A DNA stretch of 64,000 nt from the NCBI RefSeq assembly GCF_016342405.1, contig NZ_JAEINN010000002.1, forward strand, positions 310,001-374,000, given 5' to 3'. Under the pieces are notes generated by a model that saw only the letters and a list, made by a program, of their open reading frames with translations, had not been told where the DNA came from and made no database searches. Shown here in pieces: positions 48 through 64,000 of the stretch. Within the stretch, counting starts at the first letter, position 1. Each line of letters begins with the position of its first letter. The stretch comes from Maridesulfovibrio ferrireducens. GTDB lineage: Bacteria; Desulfobacterota; Desulfovibrionia; Desulfovibrionales; Desulfovibrionaceae. The position numbers were made by a program, and so were the translations under genes.

Positions 48-920
48 ATGAATATTGATCATAGTGATGTTATCAAACTTGGTGATCAGCACTTTCTGGT
101 GCTTAAGAATGAAGAAGAACGAAGATTCGGACTGGTAGACCCTAAGTATTGGGTGAAGCGTGGAAAGCATTTAGAATCAGGGCAGCCTCAAATTTTGAAA
201 TTAGCGTTTTATGAAAAATTCCCTATGAATATCGGTCCATTTAAAATTGAATGTTATAGAAGTCCACGCAAGGAAGCCAGAATTCTTGAGCTTGTTAAGG
301 GTGATATGCGTTTTATGCAGGGATGTTCGAATGAAGATGAAGTTGGTAATAATGTCAGGGTTTTAGATATAATTCGTGGTAAACGTCTTGATATTGTTGT
401 TCATAATATTCCTGTCGATCATAAGACTTATTTTTATGAATATTTTCCCGATATTTTGGAGAAGTATATCGGATCATGTGAAGCTATTAAGTTTTTGCAT
501 GACCATGATGAAAAGCACGGGGATGTGCGGCGTGATCATCTGTGGGTTGAAAGTGGAACAGGGGATTACAGGTGGATTGATTTTGATTACGCTTTTGAAT
601 TGTATGAAAATCCTTTCGGCCTTGATGTTTTCGGACTTGGAAGCATCCTTATATATCTTGTAGGTAAAGCTAATTTTACGATGCAAACTCTGCTTGATTT
701 AAAAATTGAACACTCAATTCTCGAAACGCTTAACAGTGGAGACTATTCTGTCGTTATAGGAAACAGAGTTGTTAATGTTCGTAAAATATATAGTTATATT
801 CCGGAATCTTTGAATAATATTTTGATGCATTTTTCATCTTCGAGTACAGTGTTTTATGAGTCGGTAGATGAACTGTTGTTTGATATGCGAAGGTGTTTGA
901 AAGAAATTCGTGGCTTATAG
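48..920 (+). CDS. Protein kinase-like protein (atypical catalytic loop)
   Basis: A 290-residue soluble protein with the skeleton of a protein kinase fold. A beta-3 lysine is likely at K51, an alpha-C glutamate at about E76, a catalytic loop HGDVRRDH at residues 157-164 in place of the usual HRDxxxxN, and an IDFD motif at 177-180 in place of DFG. D159 and D178 would be the catalytic and metal-binding aspartates. The usual loop Asn is replaced by His, so phosphotransfer is likely but not certain; an aminoglycoside-phosphotransferase-like role is an alternative. No strong ribosome binding site precedes the ATG. A universal stress protein follows 40 bases later on the same strand, suggesting a shared stress-related unit. 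Confidence 0.6.
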   Translation: MNIDHSDVIKLGDQHFLVLKNEEERRFGLVDPKYWVKRGKHLESGQPQILKLAFYEKFPMNIGPFKIECYRSPRKEARILELVKGDMRFMQGCSNEDEVGNNVRVLDIIRGKRLDIVVHNIPVDHKTYFYEYFPDILEKYIGSCEAIKFLHDHDEKHGDVRRDHLWVESGTGDYRWIDFDYAFELYENPFGLDVFGLGSILIYLVGKANFTMQTLLDLKIEHSILETLNSGDYSVVIGNRVVNVRKIYSYIPESLNNILMHFSSSSTVFYESVDELLFDMRRCLKEIRGL

Positions 921-54954: not shown

Positions 54955-55405
54955 ATCAATACCTCTCGTTAAATTTTAAAGTTCTGAGCCTTTGCCAAAA
55001 ATCGAAGCCTTTAAGGGGGCCGGGACCAATTCCCGGCACTCCCAATCAGCAATTACGGAGAGGGCATGTCAGACCCCTTATAGACTTCGATAGTTTCGGT
55101 GCTTCTTCAAAAGAGTGAGTCTGCCCTGAGCGTCCATAGCTGATATGGGGAATCTCCTTTTGTGTAAGTGGCTCGTAGGCTATCTTTATAAGTGGCTCGT
55201 AAGCTATCTTTACAAAAGGACAGGGCTGTTTGTTTTGCTTGCCCCTGGTTCACTCTTTTAAGGAAACACCGAACATTAAACTTTCAAGAAACTGAACTTG
55301 TAAGGATTACTTACAAGTTGGATTAACACTTGATTTAAGCTGTACTTGCTCCGGCTATTTCGCGCGGAGTGTTCGGGCTTGTGTCGCTGTGTTGAATAAA
55401 TTCTT
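54955..55405 (-). promoter_or_regulatory. Long structured leader of the leftward early operon
   Basis: About 440 bases between the operator promoter and the first gene. It contains a GCCGGGA/TCCCGGC hairpin (55019-55037), a 24-base tandem repeat (55166-55213) flanked by inverted TCCTTTTGT/ACAAAAGGA (55155-55163 and 55212-55220), and a perfect AACTTGTAAG/CTTACAAGTT hairpin (55295-55319). No gene seen. It may be an antitermination or attenuation leader. Confidence 0.5.
55166..55213. repeat. Tandem 24-bp repeat, two copies
   Basis: Two copies of AAGTGGCTCGTARGCTATCT plus four bases, nearly identical, head to tail, framed by inverted arms at 55155-55163 and 55212-55220. Confidence 0.8.
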
Positions 55406-55542: not shown

Positions 55543-55815
55543 TTAGGAGTGTTTATTTTTTTTGTAAATCTTTTTGCGGTCAGCTATTTTTAGTAAGTAA
55601 ACAGTCAGTTCTTTATCTTCTATTGAGTAGATTATTCTGTAGTTGCCTGATCTTACTCTATAAAAGTCATTTAGTTTACCACTAAGTTTTGTATATCCTT
55701 GTGGGCGTGGATCTTCCTCTAGTCCCTCAATCGTCTCTTGAAGCTGATCCTGAATTTTAGCCGGAAATTTTTTAAATTGTCTGTAGGCTTTTTTAGTGAA
55801 TTCTACTTCGTACAT
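55543..55815 (-). CDS. RelE/ParE-superfamily toxin
   Basis: 90 residues with the RelE-type fold: EVEFTKKAYRQFKKFP, GLEEDPRPQGYTKLSG, DFYRVRSGNYRIIYSIEDKELTVYLLKIADR. Likely an mRNA interferase or gyrase poison. The antitoxin gene precedes it by one base, so the order is antitoxin then toxin. A terminator follows directly. Confidence 0.88.
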   Translation of the reverse strand: MYEVEFTKKAYRQFKKFPAKIQDQLQETIEGLEEDPRPQGYTKLSGKLNDFYRVRSGNYRIIYSIEDKELTVYLLKIADRKKIYKKNKHS

Positions 55816-56383: not shown

Positions 56384-56692
56384 TTTTATATCCTCTAGGT
56401 TGATCAAATGCTTTCGCCTTATTTAGGCATATGCATAAACTATACAAATACAGTATATGCTAATTAAGCTTAGTCAATCAATTCAAAATTTGCATTTTTC
56501 ACATGACTTCAACGACGATAAGCCCGTTGTAGTAGATTTCAAATTTGCTGTATGCATATTTTAATCATTCTTATTTAAAATTCAATCTGTTTTTGAATTC
56601 TCTTAACCTGATTATTTTTAAATTACTACCAATGTTCTTATAATAGTCTCTGTGAAATTGACGAATAGGTCTACCGGACGAATATATTAATT
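56384..56692. other. Intergenic region between toxin-antitoxin and repressor genes
   Basis: 309 AT-rich bases. A minus-strand TTGATT (56481-56476) and TATACT (56457-56452) at 18-base spacing could be the toxin-antitoxin promoter; near-palindromes GCATATGC (56427-56434) and GTATATGC (56453-56460) flank its start region. Nothing else recognised. Confidence 0.4.
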
Positions 56693-57013
56693 TTAGGCAG
56701 ACTTGAGGGTTTGCTGAGATGATTTAAGTTTTTGTTTTTCAATCTGCATTTTAAATCTTTCCCCAGCTCGGAACGTTAAGGTACCGAAATCAATGCCTAG
56801 CCCTACGCAAAGACGATATGTGTCTGCAATCGTAAGAGATTGGGGTTTGCCTGTGTTTTTGCGAGGGTGTCTGAACTGTCTCCATCTTGTTATAGAACTA
56901 CCTGAATCACCAAAGGCCGCTCTTGCAAGTTGGCTATGGTTAAGTTCTTTTTCTTCCGCGATTAGACAGATTTCCTCAATAACAATTCTTTCAAATGTTT
57001 CTGCGTCCTTCAT
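56693..57013 (-). CDS. Phage repressor-like helix-turn-helix protein
   Basis: 106 residues with a lambda-repressor-type helix-turn-helix at about 15-75 (LNHSQLARAAFGDSGSSITRWRQFR, DTYRLCVGLGIDF) and no peptidase domain. It diverges from a Cro-like gene. TATAAT (57027-57022) is only nine bases before the ATG, so the message should be leaderless or nearly so. It is the best candidate to bind the GCGCAATTTGCGC operators and keep the element quiet. Confidence 0.72.
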   Translation of the reverse strand: MKDAETFERIVIEEICLIAEEKELNHSQLARAAFGDSGSSITRWRQFRHPRKNTGKPQSLTIADTYRLCVGLGIDFGTLTFRAGERFKMQIEKQKLKSSQQTLKSA

Positions 57014-57063
57014 AGATATAAATTATAGTAAAAAGATTTTTGTCATAAGCTTAAAAATTGCGC

Positions 57064-57093
57064 TTGCATGATTGGCGCAATTTGCGCTAAGTT
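57064..57093 (+). promoter_or_regulatory. Rightward early promoter with GCGCAATTTGCGC operator
   Basis: TTGCAT (57064-57069) and TAAGTT (57088-57093), with the 13-bp operator 57075-57087 in the spacer. The predicted start site falls near the ATG at 57101, so this transcript too could be leaderless. Confidence 0.6.
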
Positions 57094-57100
57094 CAACTTC

Positions 57101-57322
57101 ATGAAACGAAGTGAACCATTTCCACCACAATTGATTTCTCAACTGGAGAAAAAGCTGGGCAAAAATAATGTTGCTGAAGCTTTATCAGTGCATCCTGCGT
57201 CTTTTCGCAGAATTAAAGCTTCAAATCGTGCAGATTCGACAGTGGTTAAGCTTGCACAGCATATTGCTAACCCTGAAAAGTTTCCTTTACCGTGTGCGCC
57301 TTCTCCAAAGGAGGCCGCCTAG
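57101..57322 (+). CDS. Cro-like helix-turn-helix protein
   Basis: 73 residues: PPQLISQLEKKLGKNNVAEALSVHPASFRRIKASNRADSTVVKLAQHI, a helix-turn-helix like Cro or DNA-binding phage activators. First gene of the rightward early operon, divergent from the repressor and under the shared operator. ATG 57101 is used; the frame continues upstream only through the operator. Confidence 0.62.
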   Translation: MKRSEPFPPQLISQLEKKLGKNNVAEALSVHPASFRRIKASNRADSTVVKLAQHIANPEKFPLPCAPSPKEAA

Positions 57323-57474
57323 TGCCACCTCCACCCCAATTAATATGCAATGAAGATTGCCCACTTTACCCGTTGAAACATTCACATTCACCGCCGCTTT
57401 CTTGCGTCGATTGCAATTGCCAAGAACGCCAGCCGAATAAGTGCGACGACAACGGCGCTCGTTCATCACGATGA
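57322..57474 (+). CDS. Small cysteine-rich protein
   Basis: 50 residues, GTG 57322 sharing bases with the previous stop (TAGTG). Five or six cysteines in CNEDCP and CVDCNCQ arrangement suggest a zinc site. It resembles short phage zinc-binding proteins; no function known. Confidence 0.45.
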   Translation: MPPPPQLICNEDCPLYPLKHSHSPPLSCVDCNCQERQPNKCDDNGARSSR

Positions 57475-57560
57475 ACTGCATAAATAATACAACGCTTTCT
57501 CAGCTTAAGCACTGGGAAAGGAAACTGATAATTATCAATTAAAATTCACAGGAGGGCAGT

Positions 57561-58034
57561 ATGGCTCATAATTCCGACCCTGAGAAAATTCCGACTACGT
57601 CTCACGGTTTCTTCACTGACTGTATCGGTCTTTTGACAGCTAAAGGATTAGCTGAAGCTCTCGGAATCAGCATTACAACTGCATACCGTCAAGCGGAAGA
57701 TCCAGATTTAACAGCTGAACCTGTCCGTAACTATTTGGATAAAATCAAGGCCGTTTTTCGTCGGCTTGAGAATATCGGACGTGTAGATCTTGCTGTTTCA
57801 GGGCTTCAATTTTTAGCGGATTCAATTGGTATGCGTGTTATTCCGAAAAGTTCGCCGGTTCCGGACAAAGATTCACTAGAAGCGGAACTGTTGGACGATC
57901 TGCCGCATCTTGCAGCTGTTCATACCGCGATTATGGAGAAAAAGCCGCTTGAGGAAGTTGAAAGACTTGCCTTTATAGCTATTCGGGAAATTGAAGAGGA
58001 TGTCGTTAAATATAAAGGGGAGCTTGCAAAATGA
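57561..58034 (+). CDS. Phage regulatory protein, CII-like
   Basis: 157 residues with a strong AGGAGGG. A helix-turn-helix near 25-50 (LTAKGLAEALGISITTAYRQAEDP), then helical segments that could multimerise. The layout and place after the Cro-like gene are like phage CII-type activators, though length and sequence differ. The stop overlaps the next gene (ATGA). Confidence 0.5.
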   Translation: MAHNSDPEKIPTTSHGFFTDCIGLLTAKGLAEALGISITTAYRQAEDPDLTAEPVRNYLDKIKAVFRRLENIGRVDLAVSGLQFLADSIGMRVIPKSSPVPDKDSLEAELLDDLPHLAAVHTAIMEKKPLEEVERLAFIAIREIEEDVVKYKGELAK

Positions 58035-58210
58035 AAAAACAAATACCTTCACCTGAACCTTGCCCAAAGTGCGGCGGGTATGGCGTAAAATTCAGCTACA
58101 TAGGCCATTTTAAGGCCGTTTGCGATACGTGCGGACATTCTTCGGCTCTTGAAGAGTCAAAGCCGTTAGCAATGGAAAGCTGGAACCGTGAATCAAAAGC
58201 CGGAAAGTAA
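58031..58210 (+). CDS. Lar-like zinc-ribbon protein
   Basis: 59 residues: CPKCGGYGVKF, CDTCGHSS, and a C-terminal AMESWNRE. This is the pattern of Lar-type restriction alleviation and similar phage zinc ribbons (two CxxC pairs, then A-x-x-x-W-N-R). It starts by ATGA overlap with the previous gene. Confidence 0.7.
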   Translation: MKKQIPSPEPCPKCGGYGVKFSYIGHFKAVCDTCGHSSALEESKPLAMESWNRESKAGK

Positions 58211-58382
58211 AATTTGTGAAGGGCGTGACTGCTCAAATGTCCTTTACCGTATTCATCCGGCAACGGGAGAATATCGAAGTGATGAGCGTTGGAAAGCTTT
58301 ACGATTCTGTTGTGCGGGTTGTTTTAACGGCAAGGCGCGTAAAGAGCAGCTAGAAGCAAAGAAAAAAGCCCTAAGATTTTGA
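58188..58382 (+). CDS. Small zinc-finger-like protein
   Basis: 64 residues from GTG 58188, overlapping the previous gene by 23 bases. It shows CEGRDCSNVLYRIHPATGEY and RFCCAGCFNGKAR, so four cysteines for zinc. The end runs into a terminator. No family name recognised; typical of small phage early proteins. Confidence 0.5.
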   Translation: MNQKPESKICEGRDCSNVLYRIHPATGEYRSDERWKALRFCCAGCFNGKARKEQLEAKKKALRF

Positions 58383-58396
58383 CCATCAGGGCTTTT
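58364..58396 (+). terminator. Terminator-like hairpin
   Basis: AAAAGCCCT - N15 - AGGGCTTTT, overlapping the end of the small zinc-finger gene. Confidence 0.6.
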
Positions 58397-58438
58397 AAAT
58401 AAAACCGCATATAAAATGCGACTTAAGGAGCAATGATT

Positions 58439-58483
58439 ATGATTATACTTTGCCCGAAAGTCAAGGAGAAAGGCGAATTATGA
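58439..58483 (+). CDS. Short leader frame before the replication gene
   Basis: 14 codons (MIILCPKVKEKGEL) with AAGGAG eight bases before ATG 58439. Its TGA overlaps the next ATG (ATGA), so it would couple translation to the replication gene. Not conserved to my knowledge. Confidence 0.4.
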   Translation: MIILCPKVKEKGEL

Positions 58484-59517
58484 TTCGTGGATATATAAAG
58501 TTTTGGCGGAAGATTGAAGACAGTGTTTCATGGTCTCGTGGTATTGAATACCGCGGTTTAATGTCTTCTATTTTAATTCGTACCAGTCGGAAAAAAACAG
58601 CATTTAGAGGAACCGAAATTCAACCCGGTCAATTCGCGGCTGTTCTTTCTAACTGGTGTGATGAGCTTAACCTTGAACGCACAAAGCTTAAACGAATGCT
58701 CAAGGTTTTAAGTGAAGACAGCTTTATAAGTGTTGAAAATGTGCACAACCGTTTTATGTTGGTAAGTGTCTTAAATTGGGCAACTTATCAAGAAAACAGG
58801 GAAGGTATATGCCCAACCAATGCACAACCGATACCCGACCACCGCCCAACTGATACCCAACCAATGCACAACCGATGCACGACCGACGACCCCACCAATG
58901 CACAACCACCGCACAATGACCGCCCAATAGAACAAGAAATAAAGAATATAAGAATTAAGAAAAAGACAGAAGAGAGTACGTCACCTTCCGGCGACGGTTC
59001 GTCCGCTGATGTTCTTCTCGTAGCCGAAAGTAATAAGCCTAAAGGCATACCGAATTGCCCGTATGACTCGATTGTCGAGGTGTATAACCGCATTTTGCCG
59101 CAACTCCCGCAAGTGAAGATGGTCACGGAGAAGCGCAAAAAGGTTTTAAATGCCGCTTGGCGGGGCCATGAAGCTCGGCAAAGTGTCGAGTGGTGGGAAG
59201 CTTATTTCAAACTTGTCCTCAGTTGTCCTTTTTTGCTTGGAAAGAAAAAAGACTGGAAAGCTAATTTTGATTGGCTCCTTTCACCGGGCAATATGGTCAA
59301 AGTTTTGGAAGGACATTTTCGTGAAGAGGCACAACCGCCAGCAACTTACGACGGGACGAATCAGCCCGCTAATGGCGACGCACCGTCTTACAACGGCATG
59401 AAAATTAACAGCGTCGCACAAGGTATGGCGGTGGAAAATGACGCATTAGCGCGGCAAATGATTGTTAACAGAGAGGGAGCGGAAAATGGAAACACCCCTG
59501 CAATTAGAACAAGTTAG
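58480..59517 (+). CDS. Phage replisome organiser with embedded origin
   Basis: 345 residues. The N-terminal 100 residues (MIRGYIKFWRKIEDSVSWSRG, GTEIQPGQFAAVLSNWCDEL, LKRMLKVLSEDSFI) form the winged-helix region common to phage replication initiators. A low-complexity Pro/Asn/His/Thr/Asp linker lies at about 110-150, coded by repeated DNA. The C-terminus (CPYDSIVEVYNRILPQLPQVK, WWEAYFKLVLSCPFLLG, FDWLLSPGNMVKVLEG) is a DnaD-like or loader-contact domain. It should open the origin within its own gene. ATG 58480 overlaps the leader frame. Confidence 0.72.
   Translation: MIRGYIKFWRKIEDSVSWSRGIEYRGLMSSILIRTSRKKTAFRGTEIQPGQFAAVLSNWCDELNLERTKLKRMLKVLSEDSFISVENVHNRFMLVSVLNWATYQENREGICPTNAQPIPDHRPTDTQPMHNRCTTDDPTNAQPPHNDRPIEQEIKNIRIKKKTEESTSPSGDGSSADVLLVAESNKPKGIPNCPYDSIVEVYNRILPQLPQVKMVTEKRKKVLNAAWRGHEARQSVEWWEAYFKLVLSCPFLLGKKKDWKANFDWLLSPGNMVKVLEGHFREEAQPPATYDGTNQPANGDAPSYNGMKINSVAQGMAVENDALARQMIVNREGAENGNTPAIRTS
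58812..58970 (+). repeat. Iteron-like repeats and A-rich tract, candidate replication origin
   Basis: CCCAACCAATGCACAACCGA-T occurs twice exactly (58812-58832 and 58856-58876) and a shortened CCCACCAATGCACAACC at 58891-58907. Directly to the right is an A-rich stretch (58926-58975). Iterons inside the initiator gene followed by AT-rich DNA is the layout of the lambda O origin. Confidence 0.6.
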
Positions 59518-59881
59518 AGACGAATTAATAGCCATGAAGATTGCTTATCCTCATTGCGGATTTACAGGGACAACGATCATGGCCATAGCTCCGCTTTATC
59601 TGCGGGATTTTGAGACAGAAGGCATGTCAGCAAAGGATTTTTTTGAAGCCTGTTCGCTTGCCAGACGAAATAACAAAATGTTTCCGACGGTGGGCGATAT
59701 CGTCAAGGCTCATCGCGAATTGATGGCAGGGGCGCGGGTTCCGCGTAATAGGCCGTCGTTGCCACCGCCGCCGATTACTGATGAGCAGGTAGCAAAAGCA
59801 AAGGCGAATATTAAACGCATTATGGACATGGTGAAAAACGTAAAGCGAGTTCCAAAGTGTCGGACTTATGCGACCCGGTAG
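59486..59881 (+). CDS. Hypothetical phage protein near the replication gene
   Basis: 131 residues: LEQVRDELIAMKIAYPHCGF, DFETEGMSAKDFFEACSLARR, FPTVGDIVKAHREL. The composition and place after a replisome organiser fit a helicase-loader-like or replication accessory protein, but there is no P-loop. ATG 59486 has GGGAG; the frame from 59462 is not supported. Confidence 0.5.
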   Translation: METPLQLEQVRDELIAMKIAYPHCGFTGTTIMAIAPLYLRDFETEGMSAKDFFEACSLARRNNKMFPTVGDIVKAHRELMAGARVPRNRPSLPPPPITDEQVAKAKANIKRIMDMVKNVKRVPKCRTYATR

Positions 59882-63227: not shown

Positions 63228-63644
63228 TTAATTATTAAGTCCCATGCGCGCGGCATAATCCAGAGCCGCACGAGTCATAAACTTTGAACGGTTATCCTTA
63301 TCTACATCTGACTTCTCAACGGCCTTATCAATCTTAGCCAACTTCCATGCCGGAATGGTGAGATTAGCTTTAACGGCTGTTTCATCCAGGAACGAAGTAT
63401 CAATATCGACAAATACTATTGCTCCGTCATTTGCGTACTCGTGTTCCAAAGCTTCAGCCAGCGTGGATGCTTTGCCGGGAAACTCGGACGAATCACGCCC
63501 ATGCATCCACGTTTCTACAGCATCCTGCATTCCATCCATAAGGTCTTCAGGATCATCGCCAGAGGTTATACAACCGGGTAGATCAAGGAAGCCCGCGCTG
63601 TAACTGCCTGACGGCTCCTTCACTACTACTATAGGTAACTTCAT
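63228..63644 (-). CDS. hicB: HicB antitoxin
   Basis: 138 residues: N-terminal partial RNase H fold (MKLPIVVVKEPSGSYSAGFLDLPGC, GDDPEDLMDGMQDAVETW) that masks HicA, and a C-terminal ribbon-helix-helix (NLTIPAWKLAKIDKAVEKS, RSKFMTRAALDYA) for DNA binding. It follows hicA in the operon. Ribosome binding site AAGGGAG. Confidence 0.9.
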   Translation of the reverse strand: MKLPIVVVKEPSGSYSAGFLDLPGCITSGDDPEDLMDGMQDAVETWMHGRDSSEFPGKASTLAEALEHEYANDGAIVFVDIDTSFLDETAVKANLTIPAWKLAKIDKAVEKSDVDKDNRSKFMTRAALDYAARMGLNN

Positions 63645-63691
63645 ATATATACTCCCTTTGAAGGGGCTTGCGCCCCCTCTGTTCGGGTTGG

Positions 63692-63883
63692 TTATTTAAG
63701 TTTCAATTTGGTCTGCTTCTCTTGTTCTCGGAGAAGCCAGCCTTCGATATCTTTGTTTCCTTTTTTTACTTGTGTTTCCCTCCCGTCCGGATGTTCGAAC
63801 TTCCGGTGTTTTGAATTGTGTCCTTTGTTTGTTTCAATGAAGCCGTTCTGTTTCAACAATCTGATTAATTCCCTCGTCTTCAT
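63692..63883 (-). CDS. hicA: HicA toxin
   Basis: 63 residues: TRELIRLLKQNGFIETNKGHNSKHRKFEHPDGRETQVKKGNKDI, the double-stranded-RNA-binding-like HicA fold with the catalytic histidine in the GHNSKH segment. It cleaves mRNA. ATG 63883 is used; it lies at the predicted +1 of the promoter, so the message is probably leaderless. The longer frame would begin upstream of the transcript. Confidence 0.85.
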   Translation of the reverse strand: MKTRELIRLLKQNGFIETNKGHNSKHRKFEHPDGRETQVKKGNKDIEGWLLREQEKQTKLKLK

Positions 63884-63890
63884 GAATATA

Positions 63891-63919
63891 GTTATACGCA
63901 TTAGGCGTATTAATGTCAA
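63891..63919 (-). promoter_or_regulatory. hicAB promoter and operator
   Basis: Minus-strand -35 TTGACA (63919-63914), 17 bases, -10 TATAAC (63896-63891). The operator ATACGC-ATTAG-GCGTAT (63894-63910) covers the spacer and part of the -10 box, as expected for HicB autoregulation. Confidence 0.75.
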
Positions 63920-64000
63920 CAATAAAATGCGCATTATACGTATCTTTTTTTTAATAAATTGATATGAGAAAAATCAACCAAAATTCCCACAACAATTGCA

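Follow-up and report, generated by a model that had tools for sequence, protein, structure and literature searches.

Direct repeats of 11 bp inside an O-like initiator gene as the probable replication origin of a Maridesulfovibrio ferrireducens prophage

Introduction

Phages can carry the origin of replication inside the gene of their own initiator, as in lambda gene O with ori-lambda, phi80 gp15 and P22 gp18. The lambda origin includes a 38-bp AT-rich sequence (PMC3349717), and in the O proteins of two lambdoid phages extra iterons lengthen the very protein that encodes them (PMC7466680). The organisers of phages Tuc2009 and TP901-1 bind repeat-rich regions in their own genes, which serve as the origin (PMC8965321). 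In Salmonella phage L, six imprecise 11-bp repeats within gene 18 have been called the likely origin, and 11-bp intragenic repeats have thereby already been proposed in print as an origin; the same report describes the whole replication region as exchangeable between P22 and L, and single genes as not exchangeable (PMC8022706). A rep_origin is annotated in the phage L record MW013502. Direct repeats at a spacing of one helical turn are also reported for phage 186 Apl, which binds cooperatively to repeats 10-11 bp apart, and such repeats are described as typical of directionality factors like Apl (PMC7498355).

Here we describe a prophage initiator gene in a 64,000-nucleotide stretch of Maridesulfovibrio ferrireducens DNA (contig NZ_JAEINN010000002.1), which we call the window and in which all positions are counted from the first letter. 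The original prediction for this DNA was of an origin built like that of lambda, with iterons inside the replication gene followed by an A-rich tract. We show the anatomy of the repeat array, a constraint that acts on it at the level of the DNA, and a covariation of its repeat unit with the DNA-reading residues of the initiator. Judged from these sequence comparisons, the array is very probably the intragenic iteron replication origin of the prophage, read by the product of the gene that contains it.

Results

The initiator gene occupies 58480-59517 on the forward strand and encodes 345 aa from the ATG at 58480. Its product matched phrog_345 (replication initiation, O-like; E=5.7e-36) and gave tblastn matches in 65 phage records. 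Residues 1-109 formed a winged helix-turn-helix (wHTH) in the AlphaFold2 model (pLDDT 87), and the N-terminal domain (residues 1-104; 58480-58791, +) was similar to phrog_2514 (E=4.7e-14), a family matched by 14/14 members of relative group A1. In the model the recognition helix comprises residues 67-79 (58678-58716, +) and the wing residues 83-97 (58726-58770, +), with strands at residues 83-88 and 92-97. The C-terminal domain (about residues 192-285; 59053-59334, +) is small and all helical (pLDDT 88), matched phrog_345 and the DnaD-like phrog_10469 (the latter at E=2.2e-20) and presumably contacts a helicase or its loader. Sequence similarity to DnaD-like helicase loader PHROGs (phrog_2514/186/10469) is thus present in the protein, and the Pfam search at E<=0.1 returned no family for it, the DnaD domain included. 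Since the C-terminal domain is also found in initiators that carry other N-domains, the initiator gene is modular.

Searches of the PDB by fold gave no match at E<=0.001 for either domain, and the rows for the N-domain were mostly generic winged helices; a PDB sequence search with the N-domain profile gave a generic regulator as its best match (E=0.001), and only two NCBIfam families were hit, each by 1/61 N-domain members. Level with the generic wHTH rows stood 4pql_B (Z 8.3, rmsd 4.2, 92 aligned), 4pt7_B (Z 7.9) and 5kbj_H (Z 7.5), which we take to be RepA_N plasmid initiators. Initiators of that kind have iterons in the rep gene.

The region forms a prophage's early end. It contains an integrase gene, and terminase, portal, head protease, major head protein (capsid) and tape measure genes follow downstream, just past the window. 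Directly 3' of the initiator is an ORF of 131 aa (59486-59881, +) that has no significant Pfam or PHROG assignment and no helicase match; by its position it could be a helicase loader. Scans of the 64-kb window for Rfam families and tRNAs gave no matches. Several other features were seen in this region. A RelE-like toxin gene (55543-55815, -; phrog_1213, E=5.9e-26) stands at the edge of the prophage region beside an ORF of 196 aa with no PHROG match, and a HicB-like antitoxin gene (63228-63934, -; phrog_497) is accompanied by a short ORF (63692-63934) which on inspection by eye resembles HicA. Near the left edge, 55165-55212 holds two tandem 24-nt copies (95% matches) of TAAGTGGCTCGTAAGCTATCTTTA, possibly an attachment or insertion scar.

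In the linker-coding segment, right after the wHTH domain and before the A-rich tract, we found an array of 11-nt direct repeats of about 10 units near ATGCACAACCR (58809-58928, +). Two exact 21-base repeats and a partial third had been claimed here, and these are indeed present: the 21-mer CCCAACCAATGCACAACCGAT occurs exactly at 58812-58832 and 58856-58876, offset by 44 nt, and a degenerate third copy lies near 58891. However, the unit itself is not one of 21 bases, a reading that we rejected because the period is 11 and the 21-mer amounts to about two units. TRF reported a period of 11 with 9.7 copies at 58809-58916 and 2.6 copies at 58900-58928, together with an overlapping period of 22 at 58812-58888, and identity over 58809-58935 was 0.61 at lag 11 as against 0.21-0.39 at the other lags from 3 to 21. 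The units start at 58809, 58820, 58831, 58842, 58853, 58864, 58875, 58886, 58898 and 58909, with a single unit of 12 nt (58886-58897). The top lag-11 score over 66 nt in the whole window (45) fell at the array, the runner-up site scoring 32, and 0/5000 dinucleotide shuffles of the array reached 45 (maximum 39).

Because 11 is not a multiple of 3, the units are read in all three frames and the peptide follows the DNA. In the window alone the effect of synonymous-codon shuffling was modest (lag-11 score 31/44, null 25.1, p=0.015, 200 shuffles), and the single best lag was 22 (33/44), since the units alternate. Relatives were gathered by their N-domain. A search of 288 genomes of the window's family and of viral contigs supplied the first sample, with 80 of 236 relatives found being kept; after one locus (L001) was dropped as a duplicate of another (L002) and 36/97 as redundant, it held 61 non-redundant members, namely the window, 15 from the family genomes and 45 viral contigs. 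A second sample of 53 independent viral relatives was found with other sub-alignments, 66 new viral loci being reduced by 2 that had no N-domain ORF, 3 with a partial domain or short segment and 8 that were redundant. Each test took the 150 nt following the N-domain and the best 44-nt score at each of 26 lags (5 to 30).

In the 61 relatives the mean lag-11 score was 31.1/44 versus 23.0 under the synonymous-codon null, with an echo of 25.6 at lag 22 and values of 17.9 to 23.6 at the remaining lags, so that a single peak stands at 11; lag 11 topped the 26 lags in 42/61. The second sample gave 31.4 versus 22.4, with lag 11 best in 37/53. The codon null is anti-conservative, as 13/30 control genes reached p<=0.05 with it, and the argument for a DNA-level constraint therefore rests on the comparison among lags. 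Among relatives of the C-domain that have no N-domain, lag 11 was the best of 13 lags in 4/30, compared with 45/61 of those with the N-domain.

These results bear on the idea that a linker rich in P, Q, N and T was selected as a flexible protein tether, with the DNA repeats as its by-product. A flexible linker is to be expected between two folded domains, and some lineages with a 12-nt period, such as L168, do show tetrapeptide repeats. Nonetheless, the 11-nt period is not codon-based, most of the signal disappears on shuffling that preserves the peptide (from 31.1 to 23.0 and from 31.4 to 22.4), and the linker peptides differ widely where the period stays. Furthermore, deviations from the unit consensus in 51 arrays fell at rates of 0.22, 0.18 and 0.18 on codon positions 1, 2 and 3, with no excess at the third position. 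We consider a protein tether very unlikely as the cause of the repeats, and the earlier suggestion that the linker is dictated by DNA repeats is borne out. In the comparison of DNA repeats with protein among relatives that was suggested along with it, most of them keep the 11-nt period, and both unit and peptide change.

Over both samples lag 11 was best in 79/114 relatives. Of the 35/114 in which it was not, 19 peaked at 12, 22, 23 or 24 nt and 10 at 9, the remaining 6 having their maximum at other lags. A search of 395 genomes across the phylum yielded 7 relatives, with lag 11 best in 3; a single-protein scan of viral contigs found 0 relatives among 10 candidates, and a genome-contig scan found 1 among 60, sharing the C-domain only. 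Genes from 20 named phages included 13 with a clear N-domain, and lag 11 was best in 7 of these 13: L, Vibrio 1.085.O, Orisa03, Dulem 39, Pantoea PA-1, Cellulophaga phi18:3 and Shewanella 3/49. The exceptions were CUS-3, Solobacterium SMO_1P and Bacteroides BS-TP2, which peak at 12, Listeria A118 at 8, jenny with a weak tie and ENT47670 with a weak peak at 22.

Spacings between units were counted in the strong arrays, arrays scoring <40 (10/61 and 7/53) being excluded here as well as from the covariation, tract and codon-position counts. The first sample had spacings of 11 in 221 cases, 12 in 57, 10 in 7 and 22 in 3, and the second had 11 in 185, 12 in 44, 10 in 8 and 23 in 1. Pooled, 11 and 12 account for 507/526 spacings and 10 for 15, that is, one turn with a bias above 10.5, where the chaining admitted only 10, 11, 12, 22 and 23 and penalised 10 and 12 equally.

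A neutral minisatellite made by slippage would also consist of tandem repeats, and some lineages do have near-identical copies or, in one case, a 24-nt VNTR. The latter is found in a locus of the same genus (L006, N-domain 59% identical), where near-perfect 24-nt repeats encoding NTQAIAQP replace the 11-nt array; each 24-nt repeat may represent two 12-nt half units. Slippage is nevertheless exceedingly improbable as the source of the array, because adding or losing one 11-nt unit shifts the reading frame, because divergent sequences with different units again show the 11-nt period at this position (79/114), and because the units covary with the DNA-reading residues, as follows.

The array unit varies by lineage, from ATGCACAACCR in the window to, for example, CGCCGGGCAAC, GGGCCAGCAAG and TAACCAACAAC, around a loose common core RRCCRRC. 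Distances between units correlated with distances between whole N-domains (Mantel r=0.58), but this may reflect phylogeny alone, and we therefore argue only from partial tests in which we controlled for GC content and the remainder of the domain. In 51 arrays the signal was confined to windows within residues 57-96, with a peak of r=0.34 at residues 77-88, and 20 control DNA segments from the same genes reached at most 0.18 at scattered positions. The 46 independent arrays of the second sample gave peaks at residues 61-80 (up to 0.35) and 77-96 (up to 0.39, in window 81-92), weaker signals at 57-68 (p=0.04) and 89-100 (p=0.013), and a dip between the peaks, where window 73-84 was not significant (p=0.09). 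Positive covariation was absent from second-sample windows within residues 1-56 or 93-108, and windows 21-36 were negative. The recognition-helix signal, in windows within residues 57-80, was present in both samples, and the wing showed the strongest covariation. The recognition helix and wing are the parts of a wHTH that usually contact DNA. Residues 93-108 lie closer to the array in the gene and carry no signal, so linkage alone is insufficient to explain the pattern. Partial Mantel tests err on the anti-conservative side, and only ungapped identity was used to filter relatedness; even so, the positions of the peaks and their replication are hard to get by chance. The same genome also encodes, on a different contig, another initiator with an N-domain of this family (G000:C36:6342-6644, locus L152), which has its own 11-nt array with a different unit near AATAACAAYNA. 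As far as their sequences tell, the two initiators are a natural specificity pair.

The array is followed by an A-rich tract (58930-58972, +), presumably the DNA-unwinding element. In agreement with the stretch expected here, the 45 nt after the last unit contain 28 A, and the 42 bp of lowest stability in the gene start at 58926. Base composition 10-30 nt past the array in 51 arrays was 0.56-0.57 A and 0.05-0.06 C, and over 45 nt past the array A stood at 0.53 versus 0.36 for the gene, above the gene average in 48/51 relatives; in one C-domain control locus (L015) masked N was counted as A, an error that could only raise the value for this control. Tract codons favoured AAT over AAC (0.82 versus 0.46 elsewhere) and GAA over GAG (0.80 versus 0.64). 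They also favoured AAG over AAA (AAA 0.43 versus 0.61 elsewhere), a preference that speaks against a simple selection of A. In only 27/51 was the ORF's least stable 42-bp stretch located near the array end.

The array might bind its own gene product for autoregulation of transcription or for late silencing, and not for origin firing. Proteins that bind direct repeats at one-turn spacing do regulate transcription, since phage 186 Apl represses promoters through repeats at 10-11 bp (PMC7498355). However, the array sits in the middle of the gene, and a promoter scan of 56600-59600 returned 6 sites where 4.5 were expected, which is about chance; a weak site lies at 58733-58760, just before the array. 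We rejected a pure promoter or operator reading. Moreover, an A-richer stretch past the array in nearly all relatives fits poorly with a purely regulatory site, and the accounts cited above place a proposed or demonstrated origin at such a position in phages L, lambda and Tuc2009. We regard regulation as an improbable function of the array and retain the replication origin as the preferred reading.

Discussion

We propose that about ten 11-bp iterons, arranged head-to-tail as direct repeats, one per helical turn, in the linker-coding segment, constitute the origin. The initiator's own wHTH would bind along a single face of the DNA, taking one unit at each turn, and cooperation between neighbouring subunits may then open the adjacent A-rich, C-poor tract. 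The C-terminal helical domain could in turn bring in the replicative helicase or a loader for it. Annotations of the gene that follows name a replicative, DnaB-like or DNA helicase in 9/13 named-phage relatives with a clear N-domain; in the window the 131-aa ORF takes that place, from which we infer that the prophage would use the host helicase or a loader that is not recognised as such.

A broader picture, which as a whole we regard as possible rather than probable, is that one-turn iteron origins are the hallmark of a very large and unnamed wHTH family. The gene would be DNA-first, with an 11-bp unit translated in three rotating frames and a protein that tolerates the resulting linker. Successive wHTH subunits might assemble head to tail along the array into an unbroken filament, and since a pitch of 11-12 bp exceeds the relaxed 10.5, such a filament would underwind the DNA and help to open the A-rich tract. 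The covarying residues of helix and wing may then represent a readable code that ties each initiator to its origin.

The breadth of the 11-nt rule and the covariation of the unit with the wHTH look new: the literature searched, a body from which subscription papers were mostly absent, contained neither a family-wide 11-nt array nor covariation with a wHTH. If our reading is true, the origin of many prophages and phages with such an initiator could be read from one gene, and the specificity of initiator for origin would be predictable and could be swapped in laboratory phages. The 97 arrays in the two samples make a protein-DNA recognition code of wHTH initiators directly testable. The locus would also be a clean example of a DNA function that overrides protein sequence, an 11-nt signal being translated in three frames, and would explain the N/Q/P/T-rich repeats in the linkers of many phage initiators, which are then not to be taken as protein motifs.

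The closest known system is gene 18 of Salmonella phage L (and ST64T), whose N-domain is homologous to that of the window (HMM E=1.7e-23, hhalign 99.5%). Both genes contain direct repeats of 11 bp, which in the window immediately follow the part that encodes the N-domain. They differ in the unit, which in phage L is TGTCCAACGGA, and in its arrangement, phage L having two blocks of three and the window a single run of ten. In addition, a DnaB-like helicase gene directly follows in phage L, whereas in the window an ORF with no helicase match does so.

The comparison with lambda is more limited. The part of the lambda analogy that stands is the architecture, iterons inside an O-like initiator gene followed by an A-rich tract, and lambda indeed has 26 A in the 42 nt after ITN4. 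The window shares only this architecture with lambda. The lambda iterons are 18 bp long and spaced at 20-24 bp (lags 23/24/20), with steps of 21 in phi80 and 23-24 in P22, whereas the window has 11-bp units, one per helical turn, and the multiple 22; the recovery of the annotated lambda and phi80 spacings validates the lag scan. Lambda O and phi80 gp15 carry the Pfam domain PF04492 (Phage_rep_O), which is missing from the window protein, N-domain included, and hhalign of the latter to lambda O gave 0.8%. We therefore rejected membership of the lambda O family, given the lack of both this domain and the 20-24 bp spacing.

Apl and other recombination directionality factors are proteins of excision and transcription and not initiators, and their likeness to the window lies in DNA geometry only. 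The lactococcal Tuc2009 protein Rep2009 is unrelated to the window N-domain (0.3%), and neither Tuc2009 nor r1t had an HMM match. Tuc2009 adds a block of 5/15-nt repeats and TP901-1 (ORF13) has a period of 15, not 11. Short 11-nt runs were nonetheless seen in Tuc2009 rep (L131, AACCAAATGTC-like) and in r1t orf11 (L134, GAAATGGAACC-like), which suggests, as far as these sequences go, convergence on one-turn iterons.
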